A stretch of 64,000 nt of DNA from NCBI GenBank assembly GCA_030123625.1, contig CP126121.1, forward strand, positions 4,318,179 through 4,382,178, written 5' to 3'. Shown here in pieces: positions 6,033-14,029 of this stretch (the stretch's first letter is position 1; the number at the start of each line of letters is the position of its first letter). The stretch is from Nitrospira sp. (GTDB lineage: Bacteria > Nitrospirota > Nitrospiria > Nitrospirales > Nitrospiraceae). Both the position numbers and the translations under genes were made by a program. The notes below the pieces were generated by a model. The model saw only the letters and a list, made by a program, of their open reading frames with translations. It searched no databases and was not told where the DNA came from.

Positions 6033-6383
6033 CGCAACTCCAGTTCCATCTTTCGTCCTCCAGAGATGGTAAGGCCCCACAGCGTGCACCTACTCCGCCG
6101 AAGCAGCTTGATCTGTAACGGCCAGGCACCTGCACTTCCTGCGCAAGCGGATGACCCTGTCAGGAAGGCATGCTATGCTAGTCCGTATAAGAGCCACCAT
6201 ACCTTGTTCATAGGGTTCGATTCACCCTGCGACCTTCAATATGACCTCCGGTTCATGACCATTGATGTTACGCTATCCCTAACAGAAGGTGGCACATCCG
6301 GCTCGCATGTGACTCGGCTGCAACGTTGTTGGACAGCAGCATGATGCCTTGTGGTTCCACACCATTTGCAGAAAGGATTGCCG

Positions 6384-6608
6384 ATGAGCCCAACCGACGC
6401 GTCGATCTTTGATCTGAGCCCGTCAGAAAAGCTTCAGCTTGTGGAAGACTTGTGGGACGACTTGGCCGCCACTCCTGAAGAAATACCTGTTCATGACTGG
6501 CAAAAAGAAGAGCTGGCCCGGAGAAAGGCCCGCCTCACGATAAACCCGGCCTCCGGGCTCTCATGGGAAGAAGTCAAACGACGAGTCCGACATCGCCATG
6601 GCCGCTAG
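6384..6608 (+). CDS. ParE/RelE-associated antitoxin (addiction module component type)
   Basis: A 74-residue protein with the LSPSEKLQLVEDLWDDLA opening and the C-terminal W-x-E-x-(K/R)-R pattern of the short addiction-module antitoxins that precede ParE-like toxins. I start at 6384, after GAAAGG with a seven-base spacer, rather than at 6351. The stop overlaps the toxin start by 11 bases, so the two are translationally coupled. The family binds and neutralises the toxin and represses its own operon; both roles are inferred here. Confidence 0.8.
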   Translation: MSPTDASIFDLSPSEKLQLVEDLWDDLAATPEEIPVHDWQKEELARRKARLTINPASGLSWEEVKRRVRHRHGR

Positions 6609-6897
6609 GTTGATCGTTGCGCCAGAGGCTGAGCAAGACGTCGCCGAGGCCTATGCCTGGTACGAGGGAAGACGGAACGGGTTGGGGGAGGACTTCTTGA
6701 GCTGTGTCGATGCGTGTATTGAGGCGATTCGACGCACACCTGAGATGTATGGTGCCGTTCATGAAAACTATCGCCGCGGGTTGGTGCGTCGTTTTCCGTA
6801 TGCGATCTTCTATGAGTTTGGTGAAGGCCTGGTAACGGTTTACGGCATCTTGCACACCTCCCGAGATCCCAACAAATGGCGCCAACGCGTTCAGTGA
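6598..6897 (+). CDS. ParE/RelE-family toxin
   Basis: A 99-residue type II toxin of the ParE/RelE superfamily. The N-terminal VAPEAEQDVAEAYAWYE helix-pair, the central RRTPEMYGAV, the strand LVRRFPYAIFYEF and the terminal YGILHTSRDPNKW all match plant-type ParE-like toxins. It overlaps the upstream antitoxin gene by 11 bases and completes an apparently intact pair. Whether it targets gyrase or mRNA cannot be read from sequence. Confidence 0.82.
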   Translation: MAARLIVAPEAEQDVAEAYAWYEGRRNGLGEDFLSCVDACIEAIRRTPEMYGAVHENYRRGLVRRFPYAIFYEFGEGLVTVYGILHTSRDPNKWRQRVQ

Positions 6898-7767: not shown

Positions 7768-9699
7768 TTAGAGCCGTTCCCCGTACTTTCGATAGTGTTG
7801 CTTCTTGGCGTCGGCGATCCAATTATCCCGTTTGATGCGCTCAGGATCGGTATCGAGCTTCTTGGCGATCTTCTGGATATCTTCCGGTTTCCAACGAGCA
7901 ATTTGAATAAATGTGCGGGTACCCATCTTATTGAGAGTCTGAGCCAAGGTGGGTCCGATTCCGTTAATCTTTTTGAGATCATCCGCCTGAATGTCCTTAC
8001 TGACCTTGGACGGTCCTCCCCTGGAACTCAGCTCGGCTCCATTCTGGCGGGCCGGACGAGACGGTGGGGTAGCTGAAGCCGGTTTTGCGCGAAGTTCCGC
8101 CCGTATTTCCCTGAGATGTTTTCGCAGACGATCGATGTGCTCGTCTTTCCCTGGAATAGATTGGACCGTTTTCAATAGATTCTGACGCTCCGCTTGGACC
8201 TCATGCAGCTGACGGTGGAGGCTCGCAATCTGTTCGTCTCGTTCGTGGAGTTGTTGCTCATCGAGGAGATGTTGCGTCCGGAGTTGTTCCTGCGCGGCGC
8301 ATTGGTCTTGGAGTTTCACCACCTCCCGTTCATGTTCTTGAACCATGCGCGCGTAATTTTTCCCCCATTCTTTAAGTTCTGATTCCTTCTCCCGAAGAAG
8401 ATGGGTGACCGGCACAAGTTCTTCAATGCGGCGGTCTCGCTCGGCGATGGACCGTTCGAGCTGCTGGATCATGCCGCGATGGCCGGCTTCCCGATCACTC
8501 AGTTCCACCTCCAGCTGATGCACGCGGTCTTGCGCCGACTCCAGCTTCGCCACTTGCGCTCGAAGCCGGTCTCGGTCGGCAAGGCCTTCGTTGAGTTGGG
8601 CAATATGTTCGCGCAACACCCGGATTTCCTGCTCCATGACCTCGTGCGCTTGGTCAGCGGCTCGACAGGCCTGTTGCGCGCCTCGAAGTTCTTCAGTCTG
8701 AGCGGCCGCGATGGCATCTACCTCGCTGATGCGGCGATCTCGCTCGGCGATGGACCGTTCGAGCTGCTGGATCACGCTCCGATGGCCGGCTTCCCGATCG
8801 CTCAGTTCCACCTCCAGCTGATGGACCCGGTCTTGCGCCGACTCCAGCTTCGCCACTTGCGCTCGAAGCCGGTCCCGATCGGCGAGATCTTCGTTGAGTC
8901 GGGTGATATGGTCTCGCAGGGTACGGATTTCCTCCTTCAAGACCTCCTGGGCTTGCTCAGCGGTGCGCCAGGCCCGTTGAATCTCGTAGAGTTTGTCAGC
9001 CTGAGCGGCCGCGCTCGCATCGAATTCACCGATCCGCCGGTCTCGCTCGGCGATGGACCGTTCGAGCTGCTGAATCATGTCACGATGGCCGGCTTCCCGA
9101 TCACTCAGTTCCACCTCCAGCTGATGGACCCGGTCTTGCGCCGACTCCAGCTTCGCCACCTGGGCTCGGAGTCGGTCCCGGTCGGCGAGGCCTTCGTTGA
9201 GCTGCGCGATGTGCTCCCGCAGCACCCGAATTTCCTGCTCCATGACCTCGCGCGCTTGGTCGGCGGCCCGGCAGGCCTGTTGCGCGCCTCGAAGTTCTTC
9301 AGTCTGAGCGGCTGCCATCGCATCCACCTCGCTCACACGTTGACGGGCCGCGACTCCTTCCGCTTCCAAATCCGTCAGACGTTTTGACCGTACAGCCAAT
9401 TCTGCTTCGAGCGCCTTCACCCGTTCGCCGCGGGCGGTCAGCTCTCGTTGGGCTGAGGAGTACAGCGTTTCGGACGACATGATCTTCTGTTCGAGAATCT
9501 GCATCCCCGAGGTCTTCACCTTCAAGTCATGTGACGTCGTCTCCAGCGCCTGTTCCTTGGCTCGCAACTGATTGACGAGGTCCTCGTATGGCTGCTGGGT
9601 CGAATTCTTCGGCAATCCCCGCAACAACCAACCGACCGCGACACCAATTCCTGCGGCGATGAGGAGGCATCCGACCATCTGGCTCATCAGTGTGATCAT
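7768..9699 (-). CDS. Membrane-anchored coiled-coil protein with three 101-residue repeats and a helix-hairpin-helix end
   Basis: A 643-residue protein: one N-terminal membrane segment (residues about 8-27), a long coiled coil, and a C-terminal helix-hairpin-helix-like domain (KKINGIGPTLAQTLNKMGTR, followed by W-x-x-E-D-I). Residues about 121-423 are three near-identical 101-residue units, each with LADRDRLRAQVAKLESAQDR and VHQLEVELSDREAGHR. It follows the BON/OmpA-type gene by 14 bases and is probably co-transcribed with it. The C-terminal domain resembles the short GIGP domains found at the end of bacterial coiled-coil and L21-like proteins. A structural envelope role is likely; no enzyme motif is seen. 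Confidence 0.75.
   Translation of the reverse strand: MITLMSQMVGCLLIAAGIGVAVGWLLRGLPKNSTQQPYEDLVNQLRAKEQALETTSHDLKVKTSGMQILEQKIMSSETLYSSAQRELTARGERVKALEAELAVRSKRLTDLEAEGVAARQRVSEVDAMAAAQTEELRGAQQACRAADQAREVMEQEIRVLREHIAQLNEGLADRDRLRAQVAKLESAQDRVHQLEVELSDREAGHRDMIQQLERSIAERDRRIGEFDASAAAQADKLYEIQRAWRTAEQAQEVLKEEIRTLRDHITRLNEDLADRDRLRAQVAKLESAQDRVHQLEVELSDREAGHRSVIQQLERSIAERDRRISEVDAIAAAQTEELRGAQQACRAADQAHEVMEQEIRVLREHIAQLNEGLADRDRLRAQVAKLESAQDRVHQLEVELSDREAGHRGMIQQLERSIAERDRRIEELVPVTHLLREKESELKEWGKNYARMVQEHEREVVKLQDQCAAQEQLRTQHLLDEQQLHERDEQIASLHRQLHEVQAERQNLLKTVQSIPGKDEHIDRLRKHLREIRAELRAKPASATPPSRPARQNGAELSSRGGPSKVSKDIQADDLKKINGIGPTLAQTLNKMGTRTFIQIARWKPEDIQKIAKKLDTDPERIKRDNWIADAKKQHYRKYGERL
8431..9339 (-). 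repeat. Three 303-bp in-frame tandem repeats
   Basis: Within the coiled-coil gene the coding sequence repeats with a 303-base period (101 codons). The units share long identical stretches at DNA level, which points to recent or recombination-maintained duplication. Confidence 0.85.
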
Positions 9700-9713
9700 A
9701 CGTCATTCCGTCC

Positions 9714-10571
9714 TTACATCAGTAATTCGATCCGTTCATTCCGTTGGAGGTCTTGTTGCTGTTTCCCATGGGAGAGGGGGCGTGTCGAACCATAGCCGAT
9801 CGGGGTAAACGCATTCGTCAGCCCGTGATTGGTCAAGTACTGTTTGACGGCTTCGGCTCGACGCCGACTCAGCTGCAGATTGTACTCCGCTTCACCGATG
9901 TTTCCGGTATGGGCGGCGATTTCAATCGGCGTGCCGGGAGCTCTTCGTAAAAGGGCGATGATTTGATCCAGGACCGCCTGTCCTTTGGTCGAAATCACGG
10001 CACTTTTTGGCTCAAACTCGATCGAGGATTTCGCCAGAATCTGGTTCAGCAACAGCGGGAGTGCCGACAGGGGAACGGCGGCTGATAAAGATGATGGCAT
10101 CGGTGCCACCACCACGCGGTCTTCAATCCTCAAGCCCGCTCGTATCGCCGGAGCCGCGGCTTGTAATACCTCAGCCTTCTCGCGATGACCGGCCACCTGC
10201 CCGTTGACTACCAACGAACGTCCATCGACGATGATCGACCCCCTCTCGACCATTAAGCTCAAAATCGGTAAGAGTTGCGGAACCGTATCCACCCACACAG
10301 CCGCTTTGATCTGCTTATCAACAGTAAACTGGTCGATCACACGCATTCGCGTTTTTGCGGAGAGTGCATGAGCCTGCTCAAGAATAATGGCCTTACTGCG
10401 TTCATTGGGCAGCGAACCGCGAAGCACCAAGCTGCCTTGTTCGACGCTGGCGTGAAACGTGGCGACAGTCGCGGACGTTGGCCGTGGCGAGGAGAGATGT
10501 CTCGGGATGCACACCACGGCGAGGACTATCAGCGCCACGACACCGCCGGTGAGAATTCCCGCACGCCTCAT
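9714..10571 (-). CDS. BON-domain and OmpA-domain envelope protein
   Basis: A 285-residue protein with an N-terminal membrane segment (VVALIVLAVVCIP), two BON-like stretches (SVEQGSLVLRGSLPNE and RGSIIVDGRSLVVNGQV), and a C-terminal OmpA/MotB-type peptidoglycan-binding domain (SIEFEPKSAVISTKGQAVLD, later LQLSRRRAEAVKQYL and GYGSTRP). This is the plan of OmpATb/ArfA-like proteins. It should sit in the envelope facing the periplasm. The coiled-coil gene starts 14 bases after its stop. A shared upstream palindrome at 10628-10645 may control it. Confidence 0.8.
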   Translation of the reverse strand: MRRAGILTGGVVALIVLAVVCIPRHLSSPRPTSATVATFHASVEQGSLVLRGSLPNERSKAIILEQAHALSAKTRMRVIDQFTVDKQIKAAVWVDTVPQLLPILSLMVERGSIIVDGRSLVVNGQVAGHREKAEVLQAAAPAIRAGLRIEDRVVVAPMPSSLSAAVPLSALPLLLNQILAKSSIEFEPKSAVISTKGQAVLDQIIALLRRAPGTPIEIAAHTGNIGEAEYNLQLSRRRAEAVKQYLTNHGLTNAFTPIGYGSTRPLSHGKQQQDLQRNERIELLM

Positions 10572-10627
10572 GAGATGAGCCCGCTGTAGATAATGTGCCT
10601 ACTGGGGCGCGACGCGCGCAAGGTATC

Positions 10628-10645
10628 ACATTTGATAATAAATGT
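10628..10645. promoter_or_regulatory. Candidate operator palindrome, copy 1
   Basis: ACATTT-N6-AAATGT lies in a 29-base block (10622-10650) that recurs with three mismatches at 13895-13923. In both places the block ends 51 bases before the start of the OmpA-type gene. Conservation between the duplicated modules suggests a promoter or operator. Confidence 0.4.
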
Positions 10646-10815
10646 ACTAGCCTGCATGATTCATGAACAGTTCGTGGCGAAATCACGCAGTCACATAGCG
10701 TTATCTTAGACGGTCATTGTCATAGCCGGTTGGTAGGAGGACTTGATTTGGCGGACCCGACAAAGGAGTAATCATAGAGACCTTGAAAAAACCGAGCATT
10801 GGCAGGTTGCTATTG

Positions 10816-13620
10816 CTATACCCGTTCCCCGTATTTTCGGTAGTGTTGCTTCTTGGCGTCAGCAATCCAATTCTCCCGTTTGATGCGCTCAGGATCGGTA
10901 TCGAGCTTCTTGGCGATTTTTTCGATATCCTCCGATTTCCAACGAGCGATTTGAATAAAGGTGCGGGTGCCCATCTTATGAAGGGTCTGTGCAAAGGCAG
11001 GCCCGATCCCATGGATCTTTTTGAGATCGTCCTCCTGCTTGTCCTTACTGATCTTGGGCTGCCCTCCTTGGGAACTCAGCGTGGCTCCATTCTGGCGGGC
11101 CGGGCGGGGCCCTTCCTTTGCCGGAGCTGCTTTTGCAGGCACTCCTGCTTTTTCGCGAAGGGTCCCTCTCAGTTCTTTGAGACGTTGTTGCAGGCGATTG
11201 ATCTGCTCATCTTTCCCTGGAATGCTCTGTACCTCATGTAATAAATTCTGACATTCCGCTTGAAGATCCTGTAATTGACGGTGGAAACCTGCGATCTGCT
11301 CGTCTCGTTCATGGAGCTGTTGCTCATGAAGCAGAAGTTGCTCGCGGAGTTGCTCCTGTGCCGAGCATTGTTCTTGGAAATTGACCACTGCTGACTTATG
11401 TTCTTGAACCGTACGTGCGTATTTCTTTTCCCATTCCTTGAGTTCTGCTCCTTTCTCGCGAAGAAGATTGGCTGTCGGCATAAGCTCTTCGATCCGGCGG
11501 TCGCGTTCCGCAAGCGACTGTTCGAACTGCTTCAGGGTTCCCCGATGGGCGGCTTCCCGATCGCTCAGTTCGATCTCCAACTGATGGACACGGTTTTGCA
11601 CGGATTCCAGTTTCTCCAGGTGAGCACGAAGGCGATCCCGATCGGCGAGGTCTTTATTGAGTTGCGTGATCTGGTCTCGCAGCACCCGGTTTTCTTCCTT
11701 CAAGACGTCCTGGGCTCGCTCAGCAGTTCGACAGGCTTGCTGCGCTTCGTGGAGCTTGTCCGTCTGAGCTGCCGTATGCGCATCGAACTTGCTGATCCGG
11801 CGATCGCGTTCCGCAAGCGACTGTTCGAACTGCTTCAGGGTCCCCCGATGAGCGGCTTCCCGATCACTCAATTCGACCTCGAGCTGATGCACACGATCTT
11901 GCACCTTGGAGAGTTTCTCCAGGTGAGCACGGAGGCGATCCCGATCGGCAAGGTCTTCGTTGAGTTGGGCGATCCGGTTTTGCAGAACCCGGATTTCCTC
12001 CTTTAAGAGCTCCTGCGCATGCTCGGCAGCCTGGCAGGCCTGTTGGGCGTCACGAAGTTCGTCCAGCTGAGCGATCGAGCTCGCATTGAGCTCACTGATT
12101 CGCCCATCGCGTTCCGCGAGCGACTGTTCGAGCTGCTGGAGAGTTCCCCGATGGGCGGCTTCCCGGTCGCTCAGTTCGATCTCCAACTGATGGACACGGC
12201 CTTGCACGGATTCCAGTTTCTCTAGGTGAGCACGAAGGCGATCCCGATCGGCGAGGTCTTTATTGAGTTGCGTGATCTGGTCTCGCAGCACTCTGATTTC
12301 CTCTTTCAATACCTCCTGGGTTTGCTCGGCAGCGTGACAAGCCTGTTGAGCCCCGCGAAGCTCGTCCATATGGACAGCCATAGACTTATCGAACTCACTG
12401 ATCCGGCGATCGCGTTCCGCAAGCGACTGTTCGAACTGCTTCAGGGTTCCCCGATGGGCGGCTTCCCGATCACTCAATTCGACCTCGAGCTGATGCACAC
12501 GATCTTGCACCTTGGAGAGTTTCTCCAGGTGAGCACGGAGGCGATCCCGATCGGCGAGATCTTTATTGAGTTCTGTGATCTGGTCTCGCAGCACCCGGTT
12601 TTCTTCCTTCAACACCTCCTGAGTGTGTTCAGCTGTCTGACAAGCCTGTTGGGCCTCACGAAGTTCATCCAACCTGGCCACCGCGCTCACATTGAACTCA
12701 CTGATCCGCCCATCGCGTTCCGCAAGCGACTGTTCGAGCTGCTGGAGCGATCCACGATGCGCCGCCTCCCGATTACTCAGTTCGACCTCGAGCTGATGCA
12801 CACGATCTTGCACCGACGCCAACTTCTCCAGATGGGTCCGGAGGCGATCCCGGTCGGCGAGGTCTTTATTGAGTTGCGTGATCTGGTCTCGCAGCACTCT
12901 GATTTCCTCTTTCAATACCTCCTGGGTTTGCTCGGCAGCGTGACAAGCCTGTTGAGCCCCGCGAAGCTCGTCCATATGGACAGCCATAGACTTATCGAAC
13001 TCACTGATCCGCCTATCGCGCTCCGCAAGCGACTGTTCGAACTGCTGAAGGGCCTCTCGATGAGCTGCCTCTCGATCGCTCAGCTCAACATCTAATTGAT
13101 GGACCCGGTCTTGCCTCGACTCAAGCTTCTCGACTCGGGCACGGAAATGATCCCGTTCGGCAAGGCCTTCGTTGAGTTGGGCAATATGCTCGCGCAGGAC
13201 ACGGATTTCCTCCTTCGAGACCTCGTGGGCCTGTTCGGCGATCTGACAGGCCTGTTGAGCTCCACGGAGTTCGTTGGCCAGGGCACTAACCGTTGCGCTG
13301 AGCTCACCCACGCGCTGGCGTGCTGCAACTCCTTCAGCTTCCAAGTCTGTCAGTTGTTTCGATTGTGCAGCCACTTCTGCTTCAAGCGCCTTCACTCGCT
13401 CGCCACGCGCGGTGAGCTCTCGCTGGGTTGAGGTGAACAGCGTCTCAGATGACATGATTTTCTGTTCAAGCATCTGCATTGCCGCATTTTTGACCTTCAA
13501 CTCGTGCGATGTCGTTTCCAGCGCCTGTTCCTTTGTACGCAACAAGTTAGCGAGCTGCTGGCATTGTTGCTCGAGCGAACCCTTAGAATTTTGCTGCAAC
13601 CATCTGTTCAGTGTGCTCAT
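10816..13620 (-). CDS. Coiled-coil protein with six 101-residue repeats and a helix-hairpin-helix end, no membrane anchor
   Basis: A 934-residue paralogue of the protein at 7768-9699. It has six 101-residue units (residues about 103-708) instead of three and the same C-terminal domain (KKIHGIGPAFAQTLHKMGTR to the end). The N-terminus (MSTLNRWLQQNSKGSLEQQC) lacks the membrane segment of its paralogue, so it may be soluble. It begins 14 bases after a decayed OmpA-type gene, reproducing the spacing of the intact module. Predicted to be an extended rod; function unknown. Confidence 0.75.
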   Translation of the reverse strand: MSTLNRWLQQNSKGSLEQQCQQLANLLRTKEQALETTSHELKVKNAAMQMLEQKIMSSETLFTSTQRELTARGERVKALEAEVAAQSKQLTDLEAEGVAARQRVGELSATVSALANELRGAQQACQIAEQAHEVSKEEIRVLREHIAQLNEGLAERDHFRARVEKLESRQDRVHQLDVELSDREAAHREALQQFEQSLAERDRRISEFDKSMAVHMDELRGAQQACHAAEQTQEVLKEEIRVLRDQITQLNKDLADRDRLRTHLEKLASVQDRVHQLEVELSNREAAHRGSLQQLEQSLAERDGRISEFNVSAVARLDELREAQQACQTAEHTQEVLKEENRVLRDQITELNKDLADRDRLRAHLEKLSKVQDRVHQLEVELSDREAAHRGTLKQFEQSLAERDRRISEFDKSMAVHMDELRGAQQACHAAEQTQEVLKEEIRVLRDQITQLNKDLADRDRLRAHLEKLESVQGRVHQLEIELSDREAAHRGTLQQLEQSLAERDGRISELNASSIAQLDELRDAQQACQAAEHAQELLKEEIRVLQNRIAQLNEDLADRDRLRAHLEKLSKVQDRVHQLEVELSDREAAHRGTLKQFEQSLAERDRRISKFDAHTAAQTDKLHEAQQACRTAERAQDVLKEENRVLRDQITQLNKDLADRDRLRAHLEKLESVQNRVHQLEIELSDREAAHRGTLKQFEQSLAERDRRIEELMPTANLLREKGAELKEWEKKYARTVQEHKSAVVNFQEQCSAQEQLREQLLLHEQQLHERDEQIAGFHRQLQDLQAECQNLLHEVQSIPGKDEQINRLQQRLKELRGTLREKAGVPAKAAPAKEGPRPARQNGATLSSQGGQPKISKDKQEDDLKKIHGIGPAFAQTLHKMGTRTFIQIARWKSEDIEKIAKKLDTDPERIKRENWIADAKKQHYRKYGERV
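11497..13314 (-). repeat. Six 303-bp in-frame tandem repeats
   Basis: Six coding units of 303 bases. Units 2 and 4 share the same start (DKSMAVHMDELRGAQQACHA), which suggests duplication of a two-unit block rather than single-unit copying. Confidence 0.85.
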
Positions 13621-13634
13621 AGTGCATTCAGTCC

Positions 13635-13844
13635 TTACATCAGCAATCCGATGTGATGGCTCCGTTGAAGGCTTGTGTGATGGCTCCCATAAACACCAAA
13701 TTGTCTCGATCGAAGCTTGTGTGGGACGTGTCGAAAACCATGGTCGTAGACCGTGGCGGAGAGGAAAGGTGCCTCGGAATGCACACCACGGCGAGAAGGA
13801 TCAACGCAACAAACACCGCCGGTGAAAATCCCCGCACGCCTCAT
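13635..13844 (-). pseudogene. Remnant of a second BON/OmpA-type gene
   Basis: The ATG at 13844 and first codons (MRRAGIFTGG) match the intact gene at 10571. An extra base after codon 11 shifts the frame; in the next frame VALILLAVVCIPRHLSSP matches the membrane segment. The sequence then jumps to the last dozen codons of the intact gene, so roughly 0.65 kb of the middle is deleted. The stop and the 14-base gap to the coiled-coil gene are conserved. Confidence 0.8.
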
Positions 13845-13900
13845 GAGATCAGCCACTGTGGATGATGTAACTATTGTGGAGTGCGACGCGGCACGGTACC

Positions 13901-13918
13901 ACATTTGATAAGAGATGT
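13901..13918. promoter_or_regulatory. Candidate operator palindrome, copy 2
   Basis: ACATTT-N6-AGATGT, the counterpart of the palindrome at 10628-10645, with one half-site change. It is positioned identically relative to the remnant gene start and may now drive the six-repeat coiled-coil gene. Confidence 0.4.
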
Positions 13919-14029
13919 ACTAGGGTAAGATTTGCCGCTGAAACAGGCGGATGTGCACAGGTTATGGTGAGCAACAAACTGGGGCATTCACCAGTCTCAT
14001 CGCAGAAGTAGGAACGGTATGCTTCTCCT

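Follow-up and report, generated by a model that had tools for sequence, protein, structure and literature searches.

The window, a 64,000-nucleotide stretch of Nitrospira DNA, contains a duplicated and diverged operon of the Nitrospiraceae, and we tentatively propose that this operon acts as a tether between the cell envelope and the nucleoid. The genes lie on the minus strand, in the transcription order OmpA relic (13850-13635), gene A (10816..13620), intact OmpA gene (9714..10571) and gene B (7768..9699). Gene B encodes a membrane-anchored coiled-coil protein of 643 aa with three 101-aa units and a C-terminal H3TH tip, and gene A encodes a coiled-coil protein of 934 aa that has six such units and the same kind of tip but no membrane helix. 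The OmpA gene encodes a 285-aa protein resembling Rv0899/OmpATb, with an N-terminal membrane helix, two BON-like folds and an OmpA domain. In the relic (13635..13850), the start and end pieces of an OmpA gene are fused and frameshifted, and they now form the leader of gene A. A conserved box at 10623..10650, upstream of OmpA-B on the same strand, has a form that fits a promoter, which it probably is. A second copy at 13896..13923 precedes the relic and gene A. When we searched the whole genome with this box, allowing up to 3 mismatches, only the two copies at the locus were found.

An earlier note on this DNA, made from the letters alone, had described two tandem OmpA/coiled-coil modules sharing a GIGP-type C-terminal domain, with three and six copies of a 101-residue unit and a membrane segment only in the shorter protein. 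The duplication of the rods, their common GIGP helix-hairpin-helix end, the exact unit length, the copy numbers and the anchoring of B alone all stand. The second OmpA does not, being a relic of about 200 nt. The note had missed that the tip belongs to the helix-hairpin-helix domains and has relatives that bind DNA, that one OmpA copy is dead and that the arrangement is old and genus-wide, set within an operon shared across the family. The flanking genes in the window's genus, which from sequence recognition we take to be dnaE and accA (purD and others in other genera), are conserved housekeeping genes, and the context holds no functional clue. Between the module and dnaE, at 6351-6897, there is also a toxin-antitoxin pair (Pfam Unstab_antitox and ParE_toxin).

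The three units of B, 303 nt each, occupy 8449..9357 and the six units of A occupy 11515..13332, both on the minus strand; within A, units A2/A4 and A3/A5 are most alike, that is, in two-unit steps. Tandem repeats with a 303-nt period were found at 8426-9324 (3.0 copies) and 11501-13274 (5.9 copies). All nine unit copies are in register and are 70-84% identical to the reference copy, far above chance. Throughout both rods, hydrophobic residues recur every 3.48 positions, the heptad period, and since 101 residues make 29 turns of 3.48 (fourteen heptads plus three residues), successive units should join without a break in the coil. A coiled coil rises about 0.15 nm per residue, and each unit would thus lengthen the rod by about 15 nm, to an estimated total of some 75 nm in B and 120 nm in A. 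A fold search with a rod model of modest confidence (mean pLDDT 68) gave no match at E <= 0.001. The head domains of SMC and Rad50 ATPases are absent from the rods, which match those families in coiled-coil stretches alone and far below the cut-offs.

Among uninterrupted copies in the genus, A has 3-7 units and B has 1-4. Two genomes, G005 and G007, have loci that are 97.7% identical over 4.1 kb, yet B has three units in G005 and four in G007; G007 is a fragmented assembly, and repeat collapse would not yield an extra unit. Because counts differ both between species and between these two loci, the unit number is not fixed, and the constant number that the earlier note had named as counting against its reading was not seen. 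Within A, the first and last units are mostly orthologous from one species to another; the inner ones are duplicated within individual lineages, frequently two at a time. In the window, A2/A4 are 90% identical and A3/A5 are 87% identical, and no pair of units exceeds 90%. Elsewhere, A3/A5 reach 99.7% identity at locus L036, and two units are fully identical in G001, a single-contig genome. The A arrays of the window, L036, L039 and L052 apparently grow by two-unit (606-nt) steps. Odd unit numbers in A look commoner than even ones, in counts that do not account for shared ancestry. In several relatives the reading frame of gene B is interrupted. We considered this as biology and rejected it, since the breaks reflect gaps in the scaffolds (runs of N) or faulty assembly at the repeats; low unit counts in short-read assemblies are therefore unsafe.

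B has a single membrane helix at about residues 5-27 (9619..9687, minus strand), with no Lys or Arg before it and Arg/Lys after it. The helix is kept throughout the genus, and basic residues lie solely on its far side in 27 of 27 sequences, so B is predicted to have its N terminus out and its rod and tip in the cytoplasm. A cysteine within the helix, Cys11 (9667-9669), is invariant across genera. We rejected it as part of a lipoprotein box, since it is too near the start and there is no basic n-region.

The predicted topology bears on two other readings of the rods. The earlier note had proposed spacers that reach different distances, here taken to lie outside the cytoplasm, or a length ruler subject to phase variation. 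The differences in unit number between species and between two nearly identical loci speak for such a device, as does the occurrence of identical units that could recombine. We consider it unlikely all the same: the charge pattern of B predicts a cytoplasmic rod, A has no membrane segment, the units of the window are at most 90% identical and, because each unit is 303 nt, gain or loss of one keeps the reading frame, so that variation in length is expected but not on/off switching. A ComEA-like role in DNA uptake or handling, in which the tip of B would bind incoming DNA outside the cytoplasm near an OmpA-held wall, draws on the resemblance of a membrane helix plus helix-hairpin-helix tip to ComEA. 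It is very unlikely, given that the charge distribution predicts the opposite topology, that A has neither membrane segment nor signal, that rods of about 75-120 nm exceed the periplasm and that we recognized no competence genes among the conserved neighbors.

The OmpA C-terminal domain is present with a Pfam match of E 5e-20, above the cut-off. The Rv0899/OmpATb profile (2l26) aligns with residues 27-285 (E 5e-22), Rv0899/OmpATb was the top match in a fold search (E 2e-11) and in an AlphaFold2 model (pLDDT 74) two BON-like folds precede the OmpA domain. The order of parts, a membrane helix, a BON-type region and an OmpA domain, is therefore that of Rv0899/ArfA. Because the match to NCBIfam ArfA_OmpATb_N reached 35 bits against a cut-off of 81, we describe the protein as working like ArfA and do not file it as ArfA. 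The window's genome has a single intact OmpA of this type. At residue 223 it has Gly (GGA, 9903-9905) where an Asp normally contacts peptidoglycan, so that its motif reads HTG where relatives have HTD or, in one case, HTE; the Arg of LSxxRA is kept. With only one of the two peptidoglycan-binding residues in place, wall binding may be weakened in this genome alone. Similar OmpA proteins of Paraburkholderia were rejected as members of the same system, as they belong to type VI secretion loci.

The tip occupies 7771..7986 in B and 10819..11034 in A, both on the minus strand. It has the GIGP hairpin and the conserved downstream helices of H3TH/COG3743-type domains, and its match to Pfam HHH_5 falls just under the cut-off. 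It matches the tails of NuoE, ribosomal proteins L21 and S2 and the phasin PhaH, the last with E 2e-14 for the C-terminal domain. Only that domain matches (54 of the 250 bits needed), and the granule-binding part of the phasin is absent. Among solved structures, those closest to it are the tail of a complex I subunit and the reaction-centre protein O (matches 8yy9_O and 9wqv_a). The net charge of the tip is +4 to +8 in the window's genus and several others. Genera g9 and g14 have acidic tips, and in g15 the hairpin, retained in most sequences, is altered. In the window's genome, H3TH domains of this type are confined to A and B. Some other genomes of the genus encode additional large proteins that carry an H3TH domain, or two of them, at sites outside this locus (G001:C1:3521093-3522046, G059:C145:174702-175607, G078:C191:20697-22181, and others).

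PhaH is described as binding DNA through its helix-hairpin-helix domain and so holding storage granules on the nucleoid (PMC13052382); the authors of the protein O structure term the function of the H3TH domain obscure (PMC12079452). The main rival to a tether is that A and B are coiled-coil scaffolds under the inner membrane whose tips bind a protein complex or the ribosome and not DNA. The presence of the same domain on NuoE, L21, S2 and protein O favors such a scaffold, as do the acidic tips of two genera and the persistence of A in six species without OmpA and B. It has to be set against retention of the GIGP hairpin in most sequences and against PhaH, the sole relative with a described function, which binds DNA. 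We regard the scaffold as a serious possibility, if a somewhat doubtful one.

The tether reading rests on three features taken together, the predicted topology of B, the homology of its tip to DNA-binding PhaH and a periplasmic OmpA partner. The OmpA/BON protein would be fixed in the inner membrane and expose its domains to the periplasm, and there the OmpA domain would hold the peptidoglycan. In the same membrane, B would project its heptad coiled-coil rod into the cytoplasm, and the helix-hairpin-helix domain at its tip would bind DNA, so that the two proteins together could tie the nucleoid to the envelope. A would be a longer, soluble version that either pairs with B by way of the coil they have in common or bridges DNA by itself, and the number of units would set the length of each rod. 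In favor of the tether we count the positive net charge of the tip in the window's genus and several others, the likeness of OmpA to Rv0899 over its full length, the pairing of OmpA with a membrane-coil-H3TH gene in 8 of 22 genera, the heptad period of both rods and the conservation of gene A at 33 loci with low dN/dS. Against it we count the acidic and altered tips of the three genera, the Gly in OmpA, the species that keep A alone and the related tips on complex I and the reaction-centre protein. The fuller version of this idea, a peptidoglycan-to-chromosome link through the inner membrane whose reach is set by the number of 101-residue units and shifts over evolution, and whose anchored rod the longer soluble paralogue extends or competes with, seems to us rather unlikely as a whole.

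Gene A looks like B with only the membrane helix taken out: B starts MITLMSQMVGCLLIAAGIGVAVGWLLRGLPKNS, while A starts MSTLNRWLQQNSKGS, as if that helix alone had been excised. At 33 orthologous loci of the genus, the long gene begins with an MSTLxRWLQ-type leader and is preceded by the conserved box and OmpA remains; the OmpA copy before A is thus a relic in other species too. We considered a programmed frameshift, and also a mini-OmpA gene conserved ahead of A, and rejected both, as the frame is not preserved between species. The dead OmpA partner and the lost membrane helix might suggest that A itself is a decaying duplicate without function. This is highly improbable, because A keeps its N terminus at all 33 loci, retains both promoter box and ribosome site and has a dN/dS of 0 to 0.16 between related species (first 95 and last 75 codons; ratios of printed values). 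In addition, at least six species retain A although a search of their genomes gave no OmpA and B was not seen. The low dN/dS and this persistence identify A as a functional gene under purifying selection. A tree of the C-terminal regions gave no clean single split between A and B and forced at least five label changes. As the N termini of A and B remain type-specific, the two genes seem to have exchanged sequence in their C-terminal regions by gene conversion in some lineages.

In the genus, 45 of 79 genomes encode the coiled-coil protein and 32 have the intact OmpA; the named records among these relatives are Nitrospira MAGs. A profile search found the OmpA protein in 98 of 175 genomes of the family, representing 8 of 22 genera, and OmpA adjoins a membrane-coil-H3TH gene in 8 of the 22. 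Seven other genera typically have a single module, OmpA followed by the membrane-coil-H3TH gene, often with overlapping ends, and their rod protein is about 415-450 residues long with at most one recognizable unit. The two-gene operon (BON-BON-OmpA plus membrane-coil-H3TH protein) is most simply taken as the ancestral state of the Nitrospiraceae. In the window's genus this operon was duplicated, one copy losing OmpA and the membrane helix and gaining units. An independent duplication of OmpA and the start of B is seen in g17 (L127 9467-10893, L128 6641-8187, L143 4056-5617, L145 7738-9164). There the second copy has an OmpA that contains a proline-rich linker, followed by a short membrane protein that has the helix of B without the H3TH tip, so that the part lost is the opposite of that lost by A. 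In 296 genomes of the phylum, no match lay outside the family.

Little is settled about the attachment of the nucleoid to the envelope in bacteria. If the tether reading is right, the Nitrospiraceae, which include nitrite oxidizers and complete ammonia oxidizers, carry a conserved operon for a periplasmic OmpA protein and a membrane-anchored rod with a DNA-binding-type end domain. Evolution offers rods of 1 to 7 units as well as versions that lack a part, so that each part's role can be tested: copy A has lost OmpA and the membrane helix, and the second copy in g17 has lost the tip.

In openly licensed papers on Nitrospira with these domains, we found no description of such a system. The parts belong to known families, but their pairing, the coexistence of anchored and soluble paralogues and the turnover of units appear to be undescribed. 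Rv0899/OmpATb (ArfA) of Mycobacterium tuberculosis shares the membrane helix, BON-type central region and OmpA domain with the window's OmpA but is only about 21% identical to it; Rv0899 sits in the rv0899-0901 operon, whereas the partner in the window is a coiled-coil H3TH gene. PhaH of Caulobacter crescentus has a homologous C-terminal H3TH domain, described as DNA binding, but its N terminus binds storage granules, and it has no membrane helix, OmpA partner or 101-residue units. Protein O of the Dinoroseobacter shibae reaction centre complex likewise combines a membrane-anchored N terminus with a C-terminal H3TH domain; it differs in being 239 aa long, with two membrane helices and a flexible loop in place of a rod, and in belonging to a photosynthetic complex. 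A parallel in layout is seen in Rhizobium lusitanum (locus L147), where an OmpA/BON gene overlaps a membrane-anchored H3TH gene. Its product differs from B in having several hydrophobic segments, two H3TH domains and no coiled-coil units, and it was a single find among plasmids, but its existence indicates that the pairing of OmpA with H3TH extends more widely than the family.
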